Source: an uncultured Blastocatellia bacterium (lineage in GTDB: Bacteria > Acidobacteriota > Blastocatellia > Chloracidobacteriales > Chloracidobacteriaceae). From it: a stretch of DNA of 40,502 nt. Positions within the stretch are counted from its first letter, which is position 1; every line of letters starts with the position of its first letter. The translations under genes and the position numbers were made by a program. Below the pieces are notes generated by a model, which was not told the origin of the DNA, did not search any database, and was given only the letters and a program-made list of their open reading frames with translations. The stretch is taken from the NCBI GenBank assembly GCA_937934745.1, contig CALGZC010000036.1, positions 1-40,502 of the forward strand, written 5' to 3'. Shown piece by piece: positions 9,169-14,853 of this stretch.

Positions 9169-9349
9169 TCACTGCGAGCAGGTCAACGGGTGCCACGTCA
9201 GGCCCCGGGCCACCCCTGCCGGCAAAAACAACTAGCCTTATCGGTGACATTGCGCGTATCGTTGAGTCTCCCATCCGGCGTCGTCAAGCTAACCTGCGGT
9301 TTCGCCCGCCGGACGGGCAAGGTACGAACGATTTGGGTTGTTTTGCCTT

Positions 9350-10726
9350 ATGAAAGTCATCATCGTTGGGGCCGGATTGGCCGGCCTGGCGTGCGCCGTT
9401 GACCTGGCCGACAACGGCTATCAAGTTGAAGTGCTAGAAAAGCGCCCAGTTTTGGGGGGGCGCGTTTCCTCGTGGTTGGACAAGGACGGCGATTGGGTCG
9501 AAACAGCCCCACACGTGATCCGTGGCAGCTACAAATCGCTCATTGCCTTGATGGAGCGAGTCGGCATCGCCGACCGCATCATGTGGAAAAAGCAGCAGTT
9601 GGTGTACGCTGGTAAGGGGGGCAAAATCTCCAACATCACGTTTTCCCCCTCGGCCGGGCCGGTTGAAATCCTGCGCTCGATGATCGGCAGTGACCTGCTC
9701 GGGTTCGGCGATAAGCTCAAGCTACTCACGGGCCTATTACCGGCCTTTACCGGCGACAAGAACTTCATCGAAAACCAGGACATCAAGAACTTCAGTGATT
9801 GGGCTATGAACCTGGGGGTCAACCGGGAGGCCATCGGACGGTTCTTTGACCCCCTGTCGCGGACGGTGAGCTTCCTGCGCCCCGATGAAGTGTCTGCGCG
9901 GGTCATCATTTTCCAGATGGCTTCGATTGCCCAGGGATTGAATGCCACGCGCATCGGCTTTCTTGATGGCGATCCTTGCCAGCGGCTGTTCCAGCCCATC
10001 CAATCCTATCTCGAACAACGTGGCGCACGGATTCGCACCAACGCCCGTCTGGCGCGAATTGACTTCGCCAACGATGCGCCGCGCGCACTAGGCCTGGAAC
10101 TAACCAATGGCGAATACCTCACAGCCGACGTTTACGTCTCAGCGATGGAACTTCATGCGCTGCGTGAGGTGTTGCCAGGACAAGCCTGGAGCTTCCCGTT
10201 TTTTTCCCGCCTGTGGCAGGTTGAGGAAATTCCGGTCATTACCGTCCAGCTTCGCTTTGATCGGAAGGTCGTAACGCTGGACAACGCCGTGTTTGCCATC
10301 GGCACGATTATGTCGCTGGTTGTCAACCTCTCCGTGACCAGTCCGGGCTACGCCGATGATGTCTGTCTGATTGAAATGATTGTCGCGCCGGCGAAGGATA
10401 TTTTTCACCTGGACGACGGTGAGATTGTTCGGCTGTGTCTAGACGACCTGACCGAGCTGTTTCCTGAAGTGGCACAGGCCAACCTCGTCAAAAGCACCGT
10501 GGTACGGATTCCACAGGCGTTGTATCGGTGCGAACCAGGTGCAGAAAGTCGGCGTCCGTCGCAAAAGACGCCGATTGAAAACTTTTTCCTCTGTGGCGAC
10601 TACACGCACCACGGCTACACACCCAGTATGGAAGGGGCGACGTTATCGGGCTTCCGCGCAGCGCAAATGATTATGGAAACATACGGACGCAACCTGCAGT
10701 GGCACAGCGGCCCGCCGCCAAGCTGA
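9350..10726 (+). CDS. crtQ: Carotene desaturase, CrtQ/CrtP-type (FAD-dependent)
   Basis: This 458-residue flavoprotein belongs to the plant/cyanobacterial phytoene/zeta-carotene desaturase family, which introduces double bonds into carotenoid precursors at the membrane. It opens with the dinucleotide-binding motif VIIVGAGLAGLACA and GGRVSSW, and ends with the FAD motif FFLCGDYTHHGYTPSMEGATLSG. The central block FFDPLSRTVSFLRPDEVSAR resembles zeta-carotene desaturases more than phytoene desaturases, so the symbol is tentative. A squalene/hopanoid-type desaturase is the main alternative. The ATG at 9350 matches the family N-terminus. It probably shares a transcript with the second FAD oxidoreductase 72 nt downstream. 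No other carotenoid gene lies in the window. Confidence 0.8.
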   Translation: MKVIIVGAGLAGLACAVDLADNGYQVEVLEKRPVLGGRVSSWLDKDGDWVETAPHVIRGSYKSLIALMERVGIADRIMWKKQQLVYAGKGGKISNITFSPSAGPVEILRSMIGSDLLGFGDKLKLLTGLLPAFTGDKNFIENQDIKNFSDWAMNLGVNREAIGRFFDPLSRTVSFLRPDEVSARVIIFQMASIAQGLNATRIGFLDGDPCQRLFQPIQSYLEQRGARIRTNARLARIDFANDAPRALGLELTNGEYLTADVYVSAMELHALREVLPGQAWSFPFFSRLWQVEEIPVITVQLRFDRKVVTLDNAVFAIGTIMSLVVNLSVTSPGYADDVCLIEMIVAPAKDIFHLDDGEIVRLCLDDLTELFPEVAQANLVKSTVVRIPQALYRCEPGAESRRPSQKTPIENFFLCGDYTHHGYTPSMEGATLSGFRAAQMIMETYGRNLQWHSGPPPS

Positions 10727-10798
10727 CCTTCTGCGGCCGGCCGCATCACAGTATCTCGCACGCTAGTCCCACACTTCAGGATAGTTTCTCCGACTGCT

Positions 10799-11956
10799 AT
10801 GGATGTCGCCATCATTGGCGCCGGACTCGCCGGTTTGACTGCGGCTTACTTCCTCACCCAGCAGGGCTTCAACTGTGAACTCCTCGAAAAGAGCCAGGCG
10901 CTGGGTGGACGCATGGCGACCCGCCGCCATCTGGACATTGTGATTGACCACGGCGCGCAGTACTTTACGGTCAAGACGCCGGCCTTTGGCGCATTCCTGC
11001 GCGAAGTCGGGGTTGTGGAAGCCATGTGTCCCCTGGCGGCACCAGTGGTCGGTTATCCCTTTGCGAATTTTGCAACGGCGCTCGCCGAGGCGACACGGGA
11101 AACCTCGGATGTAGGCAGTGAGTTTCCCGACCGCTACATCTTTCGTTTGGGGATGACCACATTGGCCAAAGCGATTGCCCGGCAGATCGGGGAGCAGCGT
11201 ATCGTTCGGCAGTGTTTTGTAGAAGCCATCATCTGGGATTCGGCAACACGCCACTGGACATTGCAAACGCGCGGCGACAACACAACCCTGGGTGGCACAC
11301 GTCAGGCAGATTGTGTCGTGCTGGCGCTTCCGGCACCGCAGGCGGCCCAACTTCTGGAGCGCAGCCAACCCCTCCCGGCAGCCATCACCGCTCTTCAGAC
11401 GGCACTGAAAGGCATCCTGTACCACCCCTGTCTTACCGTTATCTGGGAGGCGAGCGGCACGGGCCTGTATCCTGGCGTCGGGGCGCTGCGCGCTACGACC
11501 GATACCTGCGCCATTGGCTGGCTGGCGTGGTTGAATCGCTTGGCGCCGGAGCGCGTCCCACCGGGGATTGATATCAACATTGCGCAACTAACGCCGGCAG
11601 CCAGCCAGGCACTTCTGGATCAGCCCGAGGGACTTGTAGTGCAGGCTTTAGCTACGGCGCTCAGTACCGACCTGCACATAACCCTACCGACGTTGCGCTG
11701 GTTACAGATTAAACAGTGGCGCTACGCCAACCCCGCCACCACGTTCACAGATACAAGCGTCCTCACCGCGGCGGCGGAATTCCAGCTTGAAGCGTGCGGC
11801 GACTACTTTCTCGGTGGCCGCGTCGAAGCTGCGTTTCTCAGTGGCCTGGCAGCGGCGGAGCGCCTCTGCCGGCGTTGGGCGCGGTCTGACGGCAGCGTGG
11901 GGCCGCAACGTGGAGACCCGGGGCCCGGCTCACAGAGCCAGATGCCGCCGGGCTAG
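10799..11956 (+). CDS. FAD-dependent oxidoreductase, renalase-like
   Basis: This 385-residue flavoprotein has the N-terminal motif VAIIGAGLAGLTAAYFL followed by the renalase-group signature LGGRMATRR (about residues 39-47) and DHGAQYFT. The C-terminal FAD block is YFLGGRVEAAFLSGLAAAERL. Bacterial renalase-like proteins oxidise off-pathway dihydronicotinamides or unidentified amines. Homologues in cyanobacteria and plants sit near pigment metabolism, so a carotenoid or quinone role is possible given the desaturase just upstream, but that is inference. The last 25 or so residues are Gly/Pro/Ser-rich and unconserved. It is convergent with phhB (40 nt between the stops). Confidence 0.82.
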   Translation: MDVAIIGAGLAGLTAAYFLTQQGFNCELLEKSQALGGRMATRRHLDIVIDHGAQYFTVKTPAFGAFLREVGVVEAMCPLAAPVVGYPFANFATALAEATRETSDVGSEFPDRYIFRLGMTTLAKAIARQIGEQRIVRQCFVEAIIWDSATRHWTLQTRGDNTTLGGTRQADCVVLALPAPQAAQLLERSQPLPAAITALQTALKGILYHPCLTVIWEASGTGLYPGVGALRATTDTCAIGWLAWLNRLAPERVPPGIDINIAQLTPAASQALLDQPEGLVVQALATALSTDLHITLPTLRWLQIKQWRYANPATTFTDTSVLTAAAEFQLEACGDYFLGGRVEAAFLSGLAAAERLCRRWARSDGSVGPQRGDPGPGSQSQMPPG

Positions 11957-11996: not shown

Positions 11997-12341
11997 TTAC
12001 TTTCCGTCGGCGTGCCCGCTACTCCCTGCCTCAGACCTTACGCGCGTCAGCAGCGCATCAATTTCGCGGGCGAGGCGTACATCAAGGATGGTCAAGCCGC
12101 CGGCATCATGAGTCCACAGCGTCAGGGTCACCTGATTCCAGTTGTGCAGCGCGATGTCTGGGTGATGGTCAGCTTCCTCGGCCAATGTTCCAACCCGGTT
12201 GACGAAGTTGAGGGCCTCGGCAAAGTTGCGAAACTTCAGCGTGCGGACTAAACGACCATCCTGGCGGCGCCATTCCAGTAGTTCGCCAAGTTGCTGTTCC
12301 AACTCGGTCGGATCGAGGAGCGAGGGGCGGGTTTCTGACAT
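11997..12341 (-). CDS. phhB: Pterin-4a-carbinolamine dehydratase
   Basis: This enzyme dehydrates 4a-hydroxytetrahydrobiopterin and recycles the pterin cofactor of aromatic amino acid hydroxylases; some bacterial homologues act in pterin or molybdopterin metabolism. The 114-residue length is typical. The signature EEADHHPDI carries His59 and His60, and WNQVTLTLWTHDAGGLT carries His78, giving the expected three-histidine active site. It starts 16 nt after the stop of the receiver-domain protein on the same strand and is likely co-transcribed with it. No phenylalanine hydroxylase gene is visible in the window, so its pterin partner is unknown here. Confidence 0.93.
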   Translation of the reverse strand: MSETRPSLLDPTELEQQLGELLEWRRQDGRLVRTLKFRNFAEALNFVNRVGTLAEEADHHPDIALHNWNQVTLTLWTHDAGGLTILDVRLAREIDALLTRVRSEAGSSGHADGK

Positions 12342-12357
12342 AGTGTATCTGACCTAA

Positions 12358-13482
12358 CTAAGCTGAAAGTTCAGAGACAATCTGAATCAACTGCTCGCGT
12401 TTGAACGGCTTCGGAATAAAGCCATCAAAACCATGGCGGGCAATCCGCTCCCGCTCCGAGGTACTGGTGTATGCCGTCAACGCCACAATCTTGGCATGTG
12501 CCAGGTGGGGTTCAACACGCAGGGCATTGAACGTCGCAAAGCCGTCCATGCCGGGCATGCCGATGTCCAACAGCACAACATCCGGGGAAAAGTGACGCGC
12601 TACCGCCAACCCCTGTACCCCATCCGTCACAAGGTAGGGCTGGTAACCGGCGGCGAGCATGACGGCACCGAGCAACTTGAGTAAGTTTTCGTCGTCGTCA
12701 ATCACCAGCACTTTTCGAGCACTTGCCGTTGGGGGCGGCGCCACGCTGGACACATGCGCAGCCGGGGGCAACGCCGGCGGAGCCGTTACCGGAACCGGAG
12801 GCGCTGCGACCTGAGGTGCCGTAGGCAGTTCGATCAGAACTCGACACCCCGCCTCGGTAGACTCGACCACCAGCTTGCCCCCTAGGCGCCTGACCAGCAA
12901 GCGGGCCAGGTTCAGCCCACTGGGTGGCATCAGAGACTCCTGACTGTCGCCCTCGCTGCTGATTACGAGGTGCAACGCCCTCGCCGTCGGCTCACACACC
13001 ACCACAACCGTTGCACCTTCAGGAGCCAGGCGCAACATGTACCGAATGACCAACCACAACACCTGCTGAAACCAAAAGGCAACTGTCACGTGTGGAAACT
13101 GGTCGTTCAGTTCAACGCGGAGCTGCTGTCGTCGTTGCCGGGCAAGAGGCTCAAGGCCAGAGCAGACTCGCTCAACGGCGACCGGCAACGCCATGGTGGT
13201 CGAGGCAGGTTCCTCTTCATTGCCCAACTGGGCCAAACTGCTGTAATCATCCAGAAGACACAGCATTTTTCCGGCCGCCGACCGAATGTGTCGCAGCCCC
13301 TCCTGCTGTTGCTGAGTGTCACCGACCCTTTCGGAAAGCCACTCCGACCATCCCAAAATAGCGGTCAGCGGCACACACAGTTCACGCGACAGGATGTGTA
13401 ACAAAGGTGACGGCATCGCCAGCAGGTTGTCTGGATTTGTATCGGTCGGCTTCGCATCGGTCAGCGATGGCACGTGTGACAT
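12358..13482 (-). CDS. Pseudo-histidine kinase fused to an intact receiver domain
   Basis: This 374-residue protein has a HisKA-like dimerisation region (about 25-90), a degenerate HATPase-like region (130-220), a Pro/Ala-rich linker (221-255) and a C-terminal receiver domain (257-374). The expected phospho-acceptor motif SHELRTPL reads SRELCVPL, so Arg33 stands where the histidine should be. In the ATPase part the N-box asparagines are absent (QVLWLVIRYMLRLAPEG) and no DxGxG box is seen. The receiver is complete: acidic pair Asp262/263, phospho-acceptor Asp306 in LLDIGMPGMDG, Thr336 and Lys358 in PKPF. It is probably a non-catalytic scaffold phosphorylated by another kinase. The ATG at 13482 was preferred over upstream frame because the gene then diverges cleanly from ribD. 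Confidence 0.85.
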   Translation of the reverse strand: MSHVPSLTDAKPTDTNPDNLLAMPSPLLHILSRELCVPLTAILGWSEWLSERVGDTQQQQEGLRHIRSAAGKMLCLLDDYSSLAQLGNEEEPASTTMALPVAVERVCSGLEPLARQRRQQLRVELNDQFPHVTVAFWFQQVLWLVIRYMLRLAPEGATVVVVCEPTARALHLVISSEGDSQESLMPPSGLNLARLLVRRLGGKLVVESTEAGCRVLIELPTAPQVAAPPVPVTAPPALPPAAHVSSVAPPPTASARKVLVIDDDENLLKLLGAVMLAAGYQPYLVTDGVQGLAVARHFSPDVVLLDIGMPGMDGFATFNALRVEPHLAHAKIVALTAYTSTSERERIARHGFDGFIPKPFKREQLIQIVSELSA

Positions 13483-13674
13483 AAACCCTCTGCAGCTAGA
13501 AGCCTGACTATGACCACGACCAGCTCCGGTCGCCACCAACAAGGAGGAAGGACGGCAACGGGTGGGTCCTGCATCACCAATGGTTCCTATGGTAACACAT
13601 GGCTCGCAGCTCGTAAGCAACTCGGCGTGGCCGCCACGGGTGAACTCTCAGGCATTGACAGTTGGGAGCACAAT

Positions 13675-14853
13675 GTGACCGAAGCAGCCGCCACAGTTCA
13701 TGAACGCTTCATGCGTGAAACACTCCAGCTTGCCGAACGTGGGCGCGGGCGCGTAAGTCCACGTCCACTGGTCGGCTCACTCGTGGTTCGGGACGGCATC
13801 GTGGTTGGACACGGTTTTTATCAGGAGCCCGAGCCGTCCCACGCCGAAGTCCGCGCCCTGCGTGAAGCCGGGGCACAGGCGCGCGGTGCAACGCTGTATG
13901 TTAATCTTGAACCGTGTGCACACTACGGACGAACACCACCCTGCACGACGGCGATTATCGCCGCCGGCATCAGCCGTGTCGTTGCGGGTATTCGCGACCC
14001 GAATCCACAGGTCAACGGACACGGCTTTACACAACTGCGCGAAGCCGGTCTTGAGGTCATCACAGGTGTCCTGGCCGTCGCGAGTACCCAACTCAACGAA
14101 GTCTTTATCGTCAATCAACTCGAACGCCGGCCTTTTGTCCATCTCAAAGTCGCCATGAGCCTGGACGGACGGATTGCCACCCGCACCGGTGCCTCCCGGT
14201 GGATTACCGGCACGGCAGCGCGAGCAGCCGGGCAAGCGCTGCGGCACCGCTATGATGCCATTGCCGTTGGCGTCGGAACGGTGATGGCCGACAATCCCCA
14301 ACTGACTGACCGGACAGGGTGGGAACGCCACCGCCCATTGGTCCGGGTTGTGTTTGACTCCGCACGGGTGCGTTTGCCGCCGGATGCGACCCTGGTGCAA
14401 ACTGCGCGGCAGACGCCGACCTGGCTGATCACCACCACCACAGCGGACAACGCCGAACACTTAGCGCGTTTGGCCCGGTGTGGGGTGCGCATCCTCGCAG
14501 TGGAGGCCGACGACCGGGGACGTCCCTGCCTGGCCACTGCCCTCGAGCGCCTGTTTTCAGAAGGCATCAGTAGCCTGCTCGTCGAAGGCGGTGCAATGCT
14601 GGCCGGTGCGTTTGTGGATGCCCGTCTGATTGACAAAATGACCTGCTTCATTGCACCACGTCTAATCGGGGGCACAACGGCGCTCAGCGCCATCGGGGGT
14701 ACCGGCGCACCGACACTAGAAGAAACACTCCAACTCACGGGCGTCACCCTAGAGCAGGTAGGAACAGACTTCGCCCTAACCGGTTATGCCGGGCGCACCA
14801 TCATTGAGGCGCTCGCGGCAGCTCGTGTTGCCGAGCAACGCTTTAGCCTCTAA
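13675..14853 (+). CDS. ribD: Bifunctional riboflavin deaminase/reductase
   Basis: RibD performs two consecutive riboflavin steps: deamination of the diaminohydroxyphosphoribosylaminopyrimidine and NADPH reduction of the ribose. The N-terminal deaminase domain (about 10-150) holds the zinc ligands His56 (HAEV, with catalytic Glu58), Cys81 and Cys90 in EPCAHYGRTPPC. The reductase domain (about 155-380) contains HLKVAMSLDGRIA and LLVEGGAMLAGAF. I chose the GTG at 13675 because GGGAG lies 6 nt upstream; the frame extends back to 13510, but the added residues do not match the family. Arg30 replaces the asparagine usually seen in NPLVG. Product 392 residues. The 3' end overlaps the convergent glutaminase-like gene by 11 nt. 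Confidence 0.94.
   Translation: MTEAAATVHERFMRETLQLAERGRGRVSPRPLVGSLVVRDGIVVGHGFYQEPEPSHAEVRALREAGAQARGATLYVNLEPCAHYGRTPPCTTAIIAAGISRVVAGIRDPNPQVNGHGFTQLREAGLEVITGVLAVASTQLNEVFIVNQLERRPFVHLKVAMSLDGRIATRTGASRWITGTAARAAGQALRHRYDAIAVGVGTVMADNPQLTDRTGWERHRPLVRVVFDSARVRLPPDATLVQTARQTPTWLITTTTADNAEHLARLARCGVRILAVEADDRGRPCLATALERLFSEGISSLLVEGGAMLAGAFVDARLIDKMTCFIAPRLIGGTTALSAIGGTGAPTLEETLQLTGVTLEQVGTDFALTGYAGRTIIEALAAARVAEQRFSL

Follow-up and report, generated by a model that had tools for sequence, protein, structure and literature searches.

The window, by which we mean the whole 40,502-nucleotide stretch of DNA analyzed here, carries a gene for a protein of 374 residues enclosed by ribD and phhB (Table 1). 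Its coordinates had been given correctly in an earlier sequence-only reading, and the start codon is backed by the alignment of orthologues, which have the same initial Met-Ser throughout. The sample consisted of seven Chloracidobacterium species, namely, the window genome and six others of the same genus (G001 to G006), whose orthologues are 55 to 59% identical to the window protein. Two public Chloracidobacterium MAG records matched at 56% identity and were the same contigs as two of the six congeners. The gene lies between ribD and phhB in all seven species, and the genes beyond ribD, of glutamine-amidotransferase-like and Ser/Thr-kinase types, were also kept. The phhB gene lies downstream on the same strand at a distance of 16 nt, as previously noted, and is probably in the same operon; calculated from the coordinates, the spacing is 15 or 16 nt in six species and 45 nt in G002. 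A phhB gene without a hydroxylase partner was ruled out, because a Biopterin_H (phhA-type) match was found elsewhere in all seven genomes.

The divergent orientation of ribD was kept in the seven species and in G008, a genome from a sister genus of the same family. The family match does not reach the first 60 or so codons of the ribD frame (window 13510-13700); translation probably begins closer to 13700, in which case the divergent promoter region would span about 200 nt. On the other side of the locus, window 9338-11956 on the plus strand faces phhB and contains a phytoene-desaturase-like gene (TIGR02731, 357 bits, under its cut-off of 569) and a second FAD amine-oxidase-type gene. In G005, an unrelated minus-strand frame follows phhB (L003:2956-4050), and neither the FAD-oxidase gene nor CrtP was found within the 12 kb examined, indicating that the locus is rearranged in this species.

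Table 1. Positions of the genes, domains, and key codons at the locus, in window coordinates
Feature	Coordinates	Strand	Remarks
Pseudo-histidine kinase/receiver gene	12358..13482	-	374 aa; ATG at 13482, stop at 12358
DHp/HisKA domain, residues 26-88	13219..13407	-	Two predicted helices; Pfam HisKA and structure models
Codon 33, CGT (Arg)	13384..13386	-	Position of the phospho-acceptor His; alignment and codons
Codon 65 (His65)	13288..13290	-	
Degenerate HATPase_c-like catalytic domain, residues 89-222	12817..13218	-	N/G1 boxes replaced; ATP-lid/F/G2 stretch deleted
Variable Pro/Ala-rich linker, residues 223-254	12721..12816	-	1 of 32 columns invariant
Receiver domain, residues 255-374	12361..12720	-	Pfam Response_reg; all phosphorylation residues present
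Codon 306, phospho-acceptor Asp	12565..12567	-	Alignment
phhB, pterin-4a-carbinolamine dehydratase	11997..12341	-	Pfam Pterin_4a, E 1.6e-30; adjacent in all seven species
ribD open frame, divergent neighbor	13510..14853	+	TIGR00326, E 2.5e-99, residues 68-423

The domain matches of the window protein differ widely in strength. The Pfam HisKA match covers residues 28-88 (E 2.6e-5, 24.6 bits) and falls slightly below the Pfam cut-off of 26.9. HATPase_c was matched by only a fragment at residues 189-222 (E 0.11), which agrees with the erosion of the ATPase boxes reported in the sequence-only reading. Linker residues 223-253 showed pLDDT values below 50 in a structure model built from the seven sequences. 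The Response_reg match extends over residues 258-369 (E 1.2e-22), and the receiver has the acid pair, acceptor Asp, Thr/Ser, and Lys of a canonical PF00072 domain at D262, D263, D306, T336, and K358, the residues that serve in phosphorylation. All five are invariant in the alignment of the seven species, and the receiver is indeed complete. No Pfam match to a DNA-binding output domain was found at E up to 1 in the protein encoded at 12358-13482, which supports the earlier view that such an output is missing.

We compared the seven proteins with the full hybrid kinases encoded near phhB in two related genomes, G007 and G009. All seven have lost the N-box, in which LLSNAIKF is changed to LVIRYML or similar; the G1 box (ADTGVG) is missing; and a shared deletion of about 20 residues has removed the F box, the ATP lid, and the G2 box. 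At H+4, the seven species have Ala or Val and G007, G008, and G009 have Thr (HELRT); the HExxT motif is thus absent from the whole genus sample. In RetS, this motif is stated to be needed for transmitter phosphatase activity, in the part of PMC5992135 that deals with it. Because the ATP boxes and the H+4 Thr were lost in all seven species, the kinase function, and probably the phosphatase function, disappeared on the branch leading to the genus, earlier than the acceptor His.

No alternative H-box or set of ATP boxes was found elsewhere in the protein; the HisKA and HATPase_c matches are in the usual order with their motifs missing, and no other alignment of a conserved His and N/G boxes rescues a kinase. 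An enzyme that is still active through another His or through unrecognized ATP-binding boxes is hardly credible. The candidate for such a role would be His65, the sole His invariant in the seven Chloracidobacterium proteins, whose place is taken by Gln or Glu in G007, G008, and G009, the three canonical relatives. However, His65 is located on the second DHp helix, distant from the acceptor position, and the features of an active HisKA kinase are absent: the N, G1, F, and G2 boxes and the deleted ATP lid in all seven species, and the acceptor His in the window species.

At the HisKA acceptor position, the window protein has Arg33 within SRELCVPL, exactly as described before; most relatives read SHELRAPL. 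The location of the H-box is certain, since the shared SxELxxPLxxILGW motif pins the alignment. Position 33 is His in five of the seven species (G001, G003, G004, G005, and G006), Gln in G002 (CAA), and Arg in the window species (CGT); the canonical relatives have His at the H-box. Since Arg was present in the window species alone, the idea that it is conserved for some separate role was ruled out. The Pfam HisKA scores were 41 to 51 bits for the five His-bearing proteins, 34.7 with Gln, and 24.6 with Arg. G002 was grouped with the His-bearing G003 both in the tree of the protein itself and in one built from four neighboring genes (supports of 95 and 100 for this pair), and the window species was placed well apart. 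A single shared loss was therefore ruled out by both trees, as His is kept in the sister of G002. This placement, together with the His of the canonical relatives, indicates that the residue was lost twice, by different changes. In the protein tree, the DHp domain of the His-bearing G003 evolved as fast as that of G002. These results correct the earlier reading in that His loss was not the founding event and the Arg is not conserved. Judged from the aligned sequences, the family is defined by the dead ATP site and by Ala or Val at H+4, not by the loss of His.

The retention of His33 in five of seven species, when the ATP site and H+4 Thr are gone from all, leaves phosphotransfer as the obvious remaining use of the domain. 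The genus function may accordingly be a relay of the ChpT/Spo0B kind, in which a phosphoryl group passes from a receiver elsewhere to His33 and on to the fused or another receiver, with the step lost secondarily in the window species and G002; we consider this somewhat unlikely. The His that such a protein requires is available in five species and not in the window species or G002. The DHp domain shows a dN/dS of only 0.06 in the His-bearing pair G001/G004, and ChpT is described, in the relevant part of PMC9981736, as a DHp protein whose CA domain has functionally degenerated. However, two losses among seven species, compared with about 0.9% of the sampled HisKA domains lacking His in general (section 6 of PMC12632262), suggest that the residue is weakly constrained. 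In addition, none of the seven orthologues matched a Pfam model for dedicated phosphotransferases at E up to 1, a search in which HMMER filters may hide very weak matches, and two Hpt matches already exist in each of the seven Chloracidobacterium genomes.

In related genera, the locus with phhB carries membrane/PAS hybrid kinases. In G007 and G009, which represent two further genera, a full VUPS-PAS-HisKA-HATPase-receiver hybrid kinase is followed by a DUF1611 gene and then phhB. The DUF1611 gene lies between the two at L126:2840-3967 in G007 and L011:3036-4079 in G009, and it was not found by the same search in the Chloracidobacterium or G008 stretches examined. In G008, one contig breaks off within a gene that runs divergently from ribD and codes for PAS, a HisKA domain reading SHELRTPL, and an N-box that is intact; another contig begins inside a receiver 69% identical to that of the window and continues into phhB. 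The G008 locus thus apparently encodes an intact PAS-HisKA-HATPase-REC kinase, on two unjoined contigs with the middle of the kinase unseen. The kinase motifs at the locus are intact in G007, G009, and the visible part of G008. The Chloracidobacterium receiver is 50 to 53% identical to that of G007, and the catalytic part is 17 to 21% identical to those of the canonical relatives. The Chloracidobacterium protein is best explained, on the basis of these sequences, as such a hybrid kinase that has lost both its sensor and its ATP site, in agreement with the descent proposed in the sequence-only reading. The same short architecture was not found outside the genus: none of 14 outside-genus matches was a short frame spanning DHp through receiver in a profile search of 247 genomes of the phylum at E up to 1e-24, with eight first-look candidates scored per genome rather than an exhaustive set.

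The hybrid kinase of G009 (L011:265-2607, C107) has intact boxes and a degenerate receiver, in which the acceptor Asp is changed to Glu and the acid pair is Asp-His. Its assignment as an orthologue is based on synteny, architecture, and a full-length match (E 2.4e-25), and it is 56% identical to the G007 protein in the catalytic domain and 32% in the receiver. In the profile search of the phylum, another G009 gene (C30) outscored C107, which we attribute to the degenerate receiver of the latter. An ancestral hybrid kinase locus may have decayed in mirror image in sister genera, with a dead kinase and live receiver in Chloracidobacterium and a live kinase and a receiver without its Asp in genus g4. 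The dead kinase would have become a ChpT-like His phosphotransferase fused to its receiver and then, through two independent His losses, a pure phospho-switch. We offer this scenario tentatively and think it rather unlikely. The mirror-image case is drawn from one genome of the G009 genus. If it is true, living species preserve every step from kinase to relay to switch.

The three domains have been conserved to different degrees. Across the seven species, invariant columns numbered 81 of 120 in the receiver, 28 of 65 in the DHp domain, and 23 of 134 in the catalytic part. In the G001/G004 pair, the NG86 dN/dS was 0.045/0.768 in the DHp domain and 0.187/0.763 (0.25) in the catalytic part; the receiver value of 0.008/0.127 (0.06) rests on few changes, since a near-identical tract, probably resulting from recent recombination, keeps its dS low. 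Third-position differences between the two loci (L007 and L006) amounted to 34 to 40% in the DHp and catalytic parts and 9% in the receiver. The ratios, being below 0.3 in all three domains, indicate purifying selection in this pair. For want of a close relative, selection in the window lineage is readable only from relative branch lengths, which were 0.17 substitutions per site for the receiver, 0.36 for the DHp domain, 0.83 for the catalytic part, and 0.34 for the four neighboring genes. Neutral decay, in which the receiver alone matters and the rest drifts as a hybrid kinase heads toward a stand-alone receiver or a pseudogene, would give the same long catalytic branch in the window lineage, and this counts against the reading of the protein as a switch. 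The fast evolution of the catalytic part and the two independent His losses point in the same direction. However, we regard decay as very unlikely, because the genes contain no stops or frameshifts, the catalytic fold is predicted to be intact, dN/dS is below 0.3 in every domain of the G001/G004 pair, and the gene and its position are kept in all seven species.

The model built from the seven sequences had a mean pLDDT of 69.8, with 59 to 88 by ten-residue blocks in the catalytic part. The DHp-CA part was modeled alone because a full-length VIA search was filled with receiver domains. When G007 and G009 were included in the alignment, this model reached a pLDDT of 83.1 and a pTM of 0.77, although these canonical kinases favor a canonical fold and the model without them was weaker (69.8). 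The best matches listed were histidine-kinase catalytic domains (Z 16.8, 2.7 A, 128 aligned residues). RetS (Z 16.7, 9.6 A, 186 aligned) and DivL (Z 16.7, 8.9 A, 200 aligned) were matched over two domains, and we infer that their large rmsd values reflect domain orientation. ChpT and Spo0B were not among the structure matches listed for this model, which excludes neither. In the models, the catalytic fold seems to have been retained after the active site was lost; the predicted DHp-CA fold, the fold matches, and the missing boxes together correspond to a pseudo-histidine kinase, in which the fold is kept and the catalytic motifs are lost.

A dead HATPase domain, a folded DHp domain, and a live receiver are the same combination as reported for RetS (in the RetS account of PMC5992135), and RetS is among the best structural matches listed. 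The protein could therefore be a phosphate sink or inhibitor whose receiver drains, and whose DHp domain docks onto, a partner sensor kinase, damping this partner. We consider this improbable, since the transmitter-phosphatase route of RetS needs HExxT and all seven species have Ala or Val at H+4.

We favor, with modest confidence, a kinase-dead, receiver-centered pseudo-histidine kinase of the RetS/DivL kind that is switched through phosphorylation by another kinase. As read from the sequences, no Chloracidobacterium copy has a sensor, ATP-binding motifs, or the phosphatase Thr; in the window species, the acceptor His is missing as well. The DHp helices would make the protein a cytosolic dimer that is not capable of self-phosphorylation, and a separate histidine kinase would phosphorylate Asp306 as the switch. 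The DHp and dead catalytic domains would serve as a dimerizer and docking surface, whose contacts shift with the state of the receiver and thereby form the output. Where His33 is kept, as in five of the species, the protein could also move phosphoryl groups between His33 and receivers, which is impossible in the window species and G002.

A literature search by title or abstract, with most subscription journals outside its coverage, found no paper on this Chloracidobacterium protein. To our knowledge, few pseudo-histidine kinases have been studied. They are already established as a kind, and what is new here is a variant with an unusually clear evolutionary series. At one conserved locus, close relatives present the intact ancestor type, a kinase-dead form in which His remains, and two cases of independent His loss. 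This series allows a direct test of what a kinase domain is kept for after catalysis is lost, and it shows a kinase converted to a regulator, with the ATP-using parts lost and the phosphate-receiving switch intact.

Among the Foldseek matches listed, the closest full-length PDB architecture was the hybrid kinase ShkA (6qrj, E 2.0e-14). Unlike the Chloracidobacterium protein, ShkA was solved with AMPPNP bound and is presented in the part of PMC12632262 used here as a kinase that is active, regulated, and equipped with an additional pseudo-receiver. DivL of Caulobacter crescentus resembles the window protein in its replaced acceptor His (Tyr in DivL), in working without kinase activity, and in its good fold match; in contrast, the N, G1, F, and G2 boxes are all present in DivL, whose kinase module is preceded by PAS domains, and no receiver is named in the portion of PMC4211667 consulted for both points. 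ChpT of alphaproteobacteria, a DHp fold with His and a functionally degenerated CA domain in the same excerpt of PMC9981736, is comparable to the five His-bearing orthologues. However, the Chloracidobacterium protein is fused to a receiver and has no phosphotransferase-family Pfam match, and the window species lacks the His. RetS of Pseudomonas aeruginosa likewise combines a DHp domain and a live receiver with a degenerate HATPase domain without G-boxes, and it was found experimentally to work via its receiver and kinase core, as far as PMC5992135 describes it in the sections cited. RetS differs in having an H-box His, HExxT, and two receivers, whereas the protein described here has one receiver, no sensor, Ala or Val at H+4, and, in the window species, Arg33.
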